Assembly: GCA_029570205.1 (NCBI GenBank)
Contig: JAKQSI010000044.1
Location: forward strand, 1 to 39,413
From: Candidatus Omnitrophota bacterium
GTDB taxonomy: Bacteria; Hinthialibacterota; Hinthialibacteria; Hinthialibacterales; JAKPRU01
DNA: 39,413 nt
Direction of reading: 5' to 3'
Shown: positions 4,938-8,105 of the stretch, in pieces
Layout: every line of letters begins with the position of its first letter
How positions within the stretch are numbered: the first letter of the stretch is position 1
Position numbers and translations under genes: made by a program
The notes under the pieces: model-generated
What the model was told of the DNA's origin: nothing
The model's database searches: none
What the model saw: the letters and a program-made list of their open reading frames with translations, nothing else

Positions 4938-5526
4938 GGTAATAACCCCATCAGAATCATTCGAGAATGAACCCTGTCCCGAATGCAGGCTCCCTCTTTC
5001 TGTCGGTCTCTCCGAATATTACCGGAGAGACGCCCTCTTGTTCTCTTTTCTCAATGGGCCGTCAGATACCGTCTGCCGCCCGCCCCATTCCGCATCTGAA
5101 ATCCGTATTAAAGCCTTCGACAAAACGCATTTAACCCGGACCGGAAAAGGTCGCGTGCGCGAGATTTGCCGGAACTCCAGCCTGAAAATGGCAACAGGAT
5201 TCACAAGGCTATTTGGAAGGACTCGCCGTATCCCAACAGCAGGAGTGCAGTTCATCATTATTCCCCCCAGGCAAGTGGCCCGCTCCAGGGGCACTTTTCT
5301 CTTGATTTCTGGTACGAAACCAAGCCTGGTTTCAAATATATCCGGGCTTCCTGTTCTCCCGAACACGTCCGATTACTCATAAGATATGCGTAGTCTATAA
5401 CATTTTCCATTCGGAGTCAACTCCCGGTTTTTGAGTGTTTCCGCACAGTGAAAAGGTCATCTCGCGAGCCTCCCTTCGGCGGAGCCGGTGATTGGGAAGA
5501 AGAAAGTATCCTTCCCACCCCTTTTT
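4938..5526. other. Intergenic stretch without a supported gene
   Basis: Open frames on both strands here are short, rich in Arg, Pro and Ser, and match no family I know. The stretch holds one copy of a degenerate dispersed repeat (5266-5340). Confidence 0.6.
5266..5340. repeat. Degenerate dispersed repeat, copy A
   Basis: It shares the core CAGGCAAGT, then a CGCTCCAG-type segment, a CTTTT-rich stretch and a segment running into TTTCAA, in the same order as 23606-23686. A third, shorter match is at 34164-34205. Spacing differs by small indels. No open frame is conserved between copies, so this looks like a DNA element and not a protein domain. Confidence 0.45.
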
Positions 5527-5787
5527 GCCAGGCAGAGACGCCTGGCCTACTGGGAAATCTGACTTGCCCGGCAGAGACGCCTGGCCTACTGGGAAATCTG
5601 ACTTGCCCGGCAGAGACGCCTGGCCTACTGGGAAATCCGGCTTGCCCGGCAGAGACGCCTGGCCTACTGGGAAATCTGGCTTGCCCGGCAGAGACGCCTG
5701 GCCTACTGGGAAATCTGACTTGCCCGGCAGAGACGCCTGGCCTACTGGGAAATCTGGCTTGCCAGGCAGAGACGCCTGGCCTACTGG
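5527..5787. repeat. Tandem array of a 39-bp unit, seven copies
   Basis: Copies of GGCAGAGACGCCTGGCCTAC begin at 5531, 5570, 5609, 5648, 5687, 5726 and 5765, exactly 39 bp apart. The linker is TGGGAAATCTGACTTGCCC with a few point differences (GACTT/GGCTT, TCTG/TCCG). Each unit contains CAGGC/GCCTG-type arms around AGAGAC; the arms are perfect (CCAGGC/GCCTGG) only in the first and last copies. The period is a multiple of three, so four overlapping frames stay open through it, but their peptides follow only the repeat. It has no unique spacers and is not a CRISPR array. The unit is the type-2 interspersed palindrome found singly at 9706 and 21169. Confidence 0.95.
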
Positions 5788-6127
5788 TGAGACAGGCCTG
5801 TTTTTGGGCGAGCTTTCTTGGAAGCTTGTCAAGATGGAACCGGAGGCGGTGGACGAATCGCGACGGTTGGGCATTATTGAGGAGACCTTGGCAGGTCACA
5901 TGACGCTACGAAGCGCTTGCAGATCTCCTGAGGTTTGGCGGATATAGCGCGGGCAATATCCCTCCGAAGGTATACCGTCTGTTCATAAATCAACACCCCA
6001 AAATGCCCAGTCAGGGGCAGAAGGGCAAAAACACCATAAGAACGGGCTAAGGTCTTGTGATATAAGTTTTTGTATTTCAGATGGTTATGAGGTATTACTT
6101 GGGTGTGTCATTATGGCGCGGTTGATT
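5788..6127. other. Gene-free stretch between tandem array and small-RNA locus
   Basis: I see no coding region, tRNA or further repeat here beyond a GACAGGCCTG fragment at the array end (5790-5800). Confidence 0.55.
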
Positions 6128-6191
6128 AAAAAAAAAGAACCCGCGACCCGGTGGAGGAGGGTTGGAAGCGGGTAACACCACCGGGCGCGGG
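6128..6191 (-). terminator. Intrinsic terminator forming the body of small RNA 1
   Basis: The stem has 14 bp (6140-6154 with 6178-6191, A6146 unpaired), followed on the minus strand by GUUC and a run of nine U (6136-6128). On the plus strand no T-run follows the hairpin, so termination is directional. Confidence 0.8.
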
Positions 6192-6200
6192 AAGGGGAGT
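6128..6200 (-). ncRNA. Candidate small RNA 1 with C-rich (anti-Shine-Dalgarno) hairpin loop
   Basis: Predicted from its promoter (6207-6235) and intrinsic terminator, this minus-strand transcript would start at A6200 and end in the U-run 6136-6128, about 73 nt. After a 9-nt leader (ACUCCCCUU) nearly the whole RNA is one hairpin. Arm 6191-6186 (CCCGCG) pairs with 6145-6140, and arm 6185-6178 (CCCGGUGG) pairs with 6154-6147, giving 14 bp with one bulged base at 6146. The 23-nt loop (6177-6155) contains UUACCC and ends in ACCCUCCU, whose CCUCCU is the complement of AGGAGG. There is no ORF with a ribosome site in it, and the nearest same-strand gene is over 1 kb downstream, so a leader role is unlikely. 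The family is not one I recognise; the loop recalls C-rich sRNAs that block ribosome binding sites in other bacteria. Confidence 0.6.
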
Positions 6201-6206
6201 AACTGT

Positions 6207-6235
6207 AATATACCGAATCAACTGAACGCGGTCAA
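6207..6235 (-). promoter_or_regulatory. Strong sigma70-like promoter of small RNA 1
   Basis: On the minus strand TTGACC (6235-6230) and TATATT (6212-6207) are separated by exactly 17 nt. Initiation is expected at A6200. Upstream, at about -49 to -66, are an A7 and an A9 tract separated by TC (6249-6255 and 6258-6266). They are in helical phase, as in UP elements that stimulate rRNA promoters. Confidence 0.7.
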
Positions 6236-6350: not shown

Positions 6351-8105
6351 TTACCTTTCGGATGTCTTGGCTTGACTATCCACCAGGGCTTTGGCGCGTT
6401 TGACAAGGTCTTCCGTGGTTGTCGATTTCAGGACTTTTCCCATGATATCGACCACTTTTGCCGGGTCGCTCTGTATGACCTTCTCGCCGATGGCCACCGA
6501 TGCGGCGCAGGCGTCTTCTTTCAGATCCGCATTCGTCAGGAAAGAAGCGACGTATGTCAGGTTGTCTATTGACGGAAGAGCCTTCAGGGCAGCCATTCCG
6601 AGTCTCTTTTCGTCGTTGCCGGAAGCCAGTTCGATGGCCTCTTTCAGGGATACCGATTTGGCCTCCGGAGTGATCTCCTGTTGAGGGATCAAACGAATCA
6701 GACCTCGCAACGCCAGAGCCTTTGACTCCGCATCAGTGGAAGTCTTCGCCAGCTGCCACAATTCCGGTATCGCATCCACCGTTGCCCATTCTGAGAGAAG
6801 GGAAACAGCTGTGCTGCTGATTTTTTTGTCGGGATCGGAGACCGCGCTCCATACGGTCTTGAGCGCCTCCTCGCCTCCAAATGAATGAAGGACTTTCAGA
6901 CTCTCAATCCGAACCGCCTGATCCTTATCCCCGGCGGTTTTCAAAAGAGTCGGCATCTGATCCAGCATCCGGCGGCGACCGATCAACTGAATCCCCATGC
7001 ACCGGGTCGCCGAGTCCGACTGATTGACCATCGCAATGACGGTTTTATCCACTTCATCGCCCGGAAGTGCGCCCAGACCTGCGAGGGCCGCTTCTGCGAT
7101 TTCCCGGTCAGAATCCTTCAGCAGGTCCTTCAGGACCGGCATGGCGGAGACATCCTCAAATCCCGGCAACGAGCAAATGGCCGCCAAGCGCACGGATTTC
7201 TGCCCGCTCTTGGAGGCTTTGAACAGCGCCGGCAGGGCGGCAGGCTCGGACCGTTTGGCTAATGTCTGAATAACAATAATTTGATTCTTGGCGGGGAGTT
7301 TCTCTAGGTCCGCTGCCAGCGCCTTAGTCACTTGAGTGCCTTCCATTTCCAGGGCGGTGCGTGCGGCAGCCTGGACCAGACCAAAATCATCGCTCCGAAC
7401 GGCTTCCAGCAGAATCGGCAGGCCCTTCTTGCCGCGCAGCAAAACACTCCCACGCAGTCCCGCCGTACGCACCTGGTGCGGTTCGTCAAATTCACGAATC
7501 TGATCGTATATCTTCAAGGCCGCATCCTTCTTTCCGTCGGCAGCCATAATCTCGGCGCAATGCAGAAGTCCTTCGCAGAATGCAAGCCGGTTGGCCTCGG
7601 ATACATCGGCGAGTGCGCTCTGAATGGCCCTGGCGGCTTCCGGCGTTCCGATCTTGCCCAGAGACCGCGCCGCGATCCGCGCAATCTCGCCGTCTTCATT
7701 CTTAAGGAATGCGGCCAGCGGTTTCACCGCTTTGGCGTCCCGACGCATTCCGATACTTCCGATCACTCCCACCAGCAGTCGACCATTGACTTTGCCGAGC
7801 GCATCACGCAGGGCATCATCCACCGATGGGTCCTGAATGGTTTCCAACGCATACCGCGCGCTGTGAGAGAGTTGTTCATCGCCCAGAAGCGGAACCAGCG
7901 TGGGGACCGACTCACTGGAGCCGGTAACCGCCAGCTCGCGGCAGGCGTCCATCTTTTCCTTGAGTGACGCACTGGATTTGAGAACGGCAAGCAGGTCCGC
8001 CTCCGGTCGATAATCGGCGAATACGACATCCTGCACGAGCGATAGTGCCAGTCCGACAAACAGAAGCAGCACGGTCAGGGTGGAATTGAGTTTTATCTTG
8101 AACAT
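6351..8105 (-). CDS. Secreted HEAT-repeat protein
   Basis: The protein has 584 residues. Start ATG 8105 has GGAG 8 nt upstream; an adjacent GTG at 8108 is possible. Residues 1 to about 30 are a signal peptide (Lys-rich start, VLLLFVGLALSLV, cleavage after VVFA). The remainder is a chain of about 14 HEAT/PBS-lyase-like helical repeats, recognisable by recurring patterns such as AVKPLAAFLKNED..IARIAARSLGKIG and SVRLAAICSLPGFED. Such solenoids bind proteins and have no catalytic residues. It follows the Tat-exported oxidoreductase gene by 31 bp on the same strand and is probably cotranscribed. Both would act outside the cytoplasmic membrane. In planctomycete-like bacteria HEAT proteins often accompany secreted sugar dehydrogenases; the partner here is unknown. 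Confidence 0.85.
   Translation of the reverse strand: MFKIKLNSTLTVLLLFVGLALSLVQDVVFADYRPEADLLAVLKSSASLKEKMDACRELAVTGSSESVPTLVPLLGDEQLSHSARYALETIQDPSVDDALRDALGKVNGRLLVGVIGSIGMRRDAKAVKPLAAFLKNEDGEIARIAARSLGKIGTPEAARAIQSALADVSEANRLAFCEGLLHCAEIMAADGKKDAALKIYDQIREFDEPHQVRTAGLRGSVLLRGKKGLPILLEAVRSDDFGLVQAAARTALEMEGTQVTKALAADLEKLPAKNQIIVIQTLAKRSEPAALPALFKASKSGQKSVRLAAICSLPGFEDVSAMPVLKDLLKDSDREIAEAALAGLGALPGDEVDKTVIAMVNQSDSATRCMGIQLIGRRRMLDQMPTLLKTAGDKDQAVRIESLKVLHSFGGEEALKTVWSAVSDPDKKISSTAVSLLSEWATVDAIPELWQLAKTSTDAESKALALRGLIRLIPQQEITPEAKSVSLKEAIELASGNDEKRLGMAALKALPSIDNLTYVASFLTNADLKEDACAASVAIGEKVIQSDPAKVVDIMGKVLKSTTTEDLVKRAKALVDSQAKTSER

Follow-up and report, generated by a model that had tools for sequence, protein, structure and literature searches.

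What is encoded on the minus strand at positions 6128–6235 of a 39,413-nucleotide stretch of DNA (the window, one whole contig) from a bacterium labelled Candidatus Omnitrophota? The original prediction, made from the letters alone, saw a stand-alone small-RNA gene with an anti-Shine-Dalgarno (anti-SD) loop. We examined whether the arrangement of promoter, hairpin and U tract is real, how far it is conserved and what the loop may recognise.

Promoter, transcript and hairpin

The elements of the locus are as follows.

6207–6235, minus strand: sigma-70-type promoter, with TTGACC at 6235–6230, a 17-nt spacer and TATATT at 6212–6207, read directly
6128–6200, minus strand: predicted 73-nt transcript, unchanged at all 71 aligned positions in two other species
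6178–6191, minus strand: 5′ arm of the stem, CCCGCGCCCGGTGG, from the fold; the stem is different but fully paired in two genomes of another family (G006 and G008)
6155–6177, minus strand: 23-nt open loop, TGTTACCCGCTTCCAACCCTCCT, with the five-genome consensus YGYTRCCCGCTTCCAACCCTYCT, from fold and comparison
6155–6160, minus strand: anti-SD piece, CCUCCU (CCUUCU in G006)
6140–6154, minus strand: 3′ arm of the stem, CCACCGGGTCGCGGG, with a single bulged U, from the fold
6128–6136, minus strand: U9 tract of an intrinsic terminator (U8 is kept across the genus)

The predicted start is the A at 6200, the seventh base past the −10 element. The RNA folds into a GC-rich hairpin with a 14-bp stem (8 + 6, one bulged U) and a 23-nt loop whose 3′ end reads CCCUCCU, and the T9 at 6136–6128 is preceded by UUC. 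Direct reading and folding thus bear out every structural element of the original prediction, from the promoter and its spacer to the terminal T9 and the loop end. The fold has a predicted energy of −29.2 kcal/mol, which none of 200 shuffled sequences reached (z −5.1).

The promoter hexamers alone are not significant, with 2 such sites in 3.5 kb against 1.7 expected. When a promoter scoring at least 10/12, a strong hairpin and a U7 tract were required together, 368 kb of the window's genome held 2 places, and 5 × 368 kb of Markov-shuffled sequence yielded just a single case with a hairpin of −20 kcal/mol or lower. The other genomic match, on contig C57, belongs to a Cas9 locus and appears to be its tracrRNA, with a 5′ part that matches the CRISPR repeats; it provided an unplanned positive control. 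The promoter–hairpin–U-tract arrangement is not due to chance.

No credible open reading frame was found within the 73-nt transcript, in line with the original prediction. A frame opened by GUG codons in the stem continues across the U tract and has no ribosome site; a coding function was ruled out for either strand, as no frame is conserved. At the level of sequence, the locus has the features of a stand-alone small-RNA gene, namely its own promoter, its own terminator and no ORF; the G006 homologue is without a clear U tract.

Conservation in the genus and homologues with another stem

The gene is present, in the same place, in two other species of the genus (G001 and G002). An alignment of 86 positions that begins shortly before the −10 and ends with the eighth U shows no difference between the window, G001 and G002. 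The promoter hexamers are identical as well, and the promoter spacer has two differences in G001. Between the window and G001, the adjoining spacers differ at 15 of 96 positions upstream and 23 of 83 downstream (38/179 together); the two neighbouring genes differ at 15–19%, the HEAT-repeat gene at 327 of 1758 positions. Since the transcript is identical while spacers and neighbouring genes drift, the constraint on it is, as judged from these alignments, stronger than that on the neighbouring protein-gene DNA.

The same spacer holds a second conserved block (5988–6045), in which 5 of 58 positions have changed in each of two species; between this block and the RNA, 23–26 of 83 positions have changed. 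On neither strand does the block fold significantly; it holds no conserved ORF and contains GGGGUGUUG preceding an AUG on the minus strand. Tandem repeats of ~40 bases (e.g. GGCCTACTGGGAAATCTGACTTGCCCGGCAGAGACGCCT) lie at about 5480–5790, in the spacer ahead of the response regulator gene.

Homologues were also found in another family of the same order: G008 (QZKN01000029, isolate SURF_12), reached through a 21-nt exact match, and G006 (JAFGTC010000061), through a near match. Their loop, CGCTRCCCGCTTCCAACCCTYCT, is also 23 nt long and is carried on an 18-bp stem of other sequence in which 18 of 18 pairs are formed. Across the five genomes the loop is nearly constant (YGYURCCCGCUUCCAACCCUYCU). 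When the three distinct hairpin sequences are aligned on the loop, the inner eight stem pairs are paired in 24 of 24 cells. Four of these eight pairs have changed on both sides, a count that is not to be overread, as part of the inner stem has an alternative alignment with a one-base shift on each side and the covariation, resting on three distinct sequences, is thin and partly alignment-dependent. Sliding the partners by one base abolishes pairing, and the outer stem sequence differs whichever alignment is used. On this comparative evidence the stem is maintained despite its changed sequence, and the loop is kept. Throughout the genus, promoter, stem and loop are conserved together, a check that the original prediction had named, and the other family shows a changed stem with a kept loop; the compensating changes that it had hoped for under a conserved loop are present, in three distinct sequences only.

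A covariance model run against 14 genomes of the class and phylum returned five members at E values of roughly 3e-9 to 6e-9, the next hit lying at 0.46. The hairpin RNA is thus present, patchily, in 5 of the 14 phylum genomes examined, and is single-copy in each. When about 85,000 species genomes were searched for the exact loop pattern, no members emerged beyond G001, G002, G006 and G008; 11 of the 15 matches, including L058 and L063 from other Omnitrophota, were discarded as chance, the flanking stem being absent. The pattern was not found in viral contigs. Although NCBI labels the bearers Candidatus Omnitrophota, genome taxonomy puts them in a small phylum, represented here by 14 genomes. 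A functionless mobile or repeat hairpin, conserved by chance, would suit the patchy distribution and the neighbours that differ between the two families, but single-copy occurrence, absence from viral contigs and zero substitutions beside drifting flanks make it barely credible.

Rfam 15 has no family scoring above its gathering score for the RNA, and in the window it recognises only a tRNA; the best weak match of the RNA is Atu_C7, at 14.3 bits against 45. As the original prediction held, the RNA matches no known family. By these searches it is a new small-RNA family, so far of five species in one small uncultured phylum.

Genomic surroundings

In the window's genus the RNA stands behind the HEAT-repeat gene, and a response regulator gene comes further downstream, all on the same strand. 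Given this shared strand and the U9 behind the hairpin, the hairpin might be merely the terminator of the HEAT-repeat gene (stop at 6351) with an odd loop. We regard this as very improbable: a conserved promoter stands between the gene and the hairpin, the 23-nt loop is kept although terminators do not need one, and in the other genera the hairpin is not behind this gene, the gene upstream of it in G006 being divergent.

In G006 and G008 the RNA lies 141 and 87 nt, respectively, ahead of a GNAT gene that is followed by EutN/CcmL microcompartment genes. This recurrence ahead of the same operon would be expected of a cis-acting leader, either a riboswitch or an attenuator, of the downstream gene. 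However, the GNAT gene carries a −10-like box of its own, placed after the hairpin and before the start, and this box is also present in relatives that lack the hairpin, which argues that the RNA is probably not the GNAT leader and more likely a neighbour. In the window's genus, moreover, the RNA has a U tract of its own at its end, and no such hairpin accompanies the GNAT–EutN/CcmL operon, which lies on another contig (G000:C57). With the box intervening and the RNA elsewhere in the window's genus, the microcompartment operon was rejected as the led gene, and a cis-leader of any kind appears quite unlikely.

Directly behind that operon on G000:C57 (L100, 11847–17750) are a gene for a compact Cas9-like protein (1001 aa) and a repeat array. 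An apparent tracrRNA with a strong divergent promoter belongs to the same locus.

Loop pairing and relation to known small RNAs

Conserved, non-coding and with an exposed loop, the locus agrees with the stand-alone small-RNA gene of the original prediction. Our preferred explanation, which we consider somewhat better than even as a whole, is that such a gene produces an RNA whose loop acts in trans on mRNAs and blocks their translation. The sigma-70-type promoter would give rise to a 73-nt RNA that is nearly all one hairpin, which in the window's genus would double as its own terminator. The strong stem would keep the 23-nt, single-stranded, C/U-rich loop open, and the loop would most likely pair in trans with mRNAs: its 3′ part, ACCCUYCU, would cover AGGAGG-type ribosome binding sites, the invariant CCCGCUUCCA part would lend specificity for particular partners, and pairing would block translation. 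Transcription, pairing in trans and the translation block are inferred here from the sequence.

Both families have a canonical 16S tail (CACCUCCUUUCU), and SD-like motifs of at least 4 bases stand at 69% of called starts, although starts are partly picked by that motif; the 3′ piece of the loop could therefore cover ribosome sites, and ACCCUYCU is complementary enough to pair with them. Pairing energies were scanned over a sample of 210 genes, in 368 kb of genome. AACCCUCCU favoured translation starts over coding windows by 1.3 kcal/mol (−1.3), with −1.5 kcal/mol for CCUCCU and −1.9 kcal/mol for the 16S tail. The whole loop showed no start preference beyond that of shuffled loops, 58 of 100 shuffles being as good, and the invariant loop part CCCGCUUCC did not favour translation starts over coding windows (+0.1 to +0.3 kcal/mol). 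The predicted anti-SD loop thus survives in part: its CCUCCU piece prefers starts, but the loop in its entirety does no better than shuffles. In G006 the anti-SD piece carries its sole change, a C replaced by U (CCUUCU), which keeps the pairing with AGGAGG through G–U. Conservation within the loop is highest outside the anti-SD part. An anti-SD role is plausible on these grounds, and we infer a trans-acting base-pairing RNA in which the anti-SD piece is a likely but not the sole seed.

Among loop-complementary sites beside orthologous genes, none is conserved. Long loop complements were set aside as targets, as they fall mostly in coding or antisense positions and in a dispersed GGGAGGGTTGGGG repeat. 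The best single case, GGGAGGGTTGGGAATG (1501–1516 of L119, G006:C88), offers 13 bp of complementarity and extends up to the start codon of a gene for a small membrane protein; it was rejected since orthologues in other genomes lack the site. Pairing with 16S rRNA was likewise dismissed, the only exact match being a chance-level 9 nt in L112, upstream of the 16S gene. The GGGAGGGTTGGGG repeat is itself a hairpin, partly complementary to the loop, that is found on many contigs of G008 and G001 (e.g. L122, L125), with about 20 copies in G008.

The same stand-alone RNA might instead present its loop to a protein or to one dedicated RNA partner, the anti-SD likeness being incidental to C/U richness. 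The invariant block CCCGCUUCCAACCCU exceeds the length that anti-SD pairing needs, the 23-nt loop length is exactly preserved, and the indifference of CCCGCUUCC to starts, like the performance of the whole loop against shuffles, points the same way. Yet the single anti-SD change is of the type that preserves SD pairing, and no partner was found, conserved gene starts offering no long complement and the contig of one 16S gene only the chance-level 9-nt match. We consider this reading possible rather than probable. In a bolder form, which we think doubtful, the 23 nt would together form one element recognised throughout the order by a single dedicated partner, whether an RNA-binding protein or one essential mRNA, with SD mimicry only part of its role; if true, the hairpin would be a regulator of an undescribed type.

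Returning to the mRNA-pairing RNA that we prefer, the original prediction had likened it to the CCUCCUCCC-motif small RNAs, a comparison that is apt in its logic and fails as to membership. The ar14/NfeR1 model (RF02344) scores 11.5 bits against a gathering score of 58.8, and CcsR1 (RF02791) 9.4 bits against 65.3; by these scores the RNA is not a member of either family, although by analogy it may work as they do. In Alphaproteobacteria, ar14/NfeR1 has three hairpins with identical CCUCCUCCC loops on diverged stems, and acts in trans to silence mRNAs at the translation start (PMC10746234, PMC3927594). The present RNA shares with it a C/U-rich anti-SD motif exposed in a hairpin loop, and a loop kept on diverged stems (three distinct sequences). 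In contrast to the three hairpins of ar14/NfeR1, each with an unpaired CCUCCUCCC, it has one hairpin with a 23-nt loop ending in CCCUCCU; the most conserved part of this loop includes CCCGCUUCCA, not the anti-SD piece, and the phylum is a different one. With CcsR1, a stress-induced RNA with a conserved CCUCCUCCC motif, it has in common a compact hairpin and a C/U-rich, anti-SD-like motif, but its loop is without the full CCUCCUCCC motif. Small RNAs with C-rich loops, such as sX13 of Xanthomonas and mycobacterial B11, expose loops for which pairing with G-rich mRNA sites has been proposed. Such RNAs carry several loops, unlike the single hairpin described here, which has no Rfam match over the cut-off.

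A literature search found no small-RNA study for the phylum, which is known here solely from metagenome-assembled genomes and to which this work adds an RNA family missing from Rfam. The unusually long loop opens a testable split between anti-SD pairing by its 3′ part and a second constraint on CCCGCUUCCA. More broadly, C-rich hairpins in which a constant loop sits on a variable stem are best known from Alphaproteobacteria, and the present finding suggests that they also occur in bacteria far removed from these.
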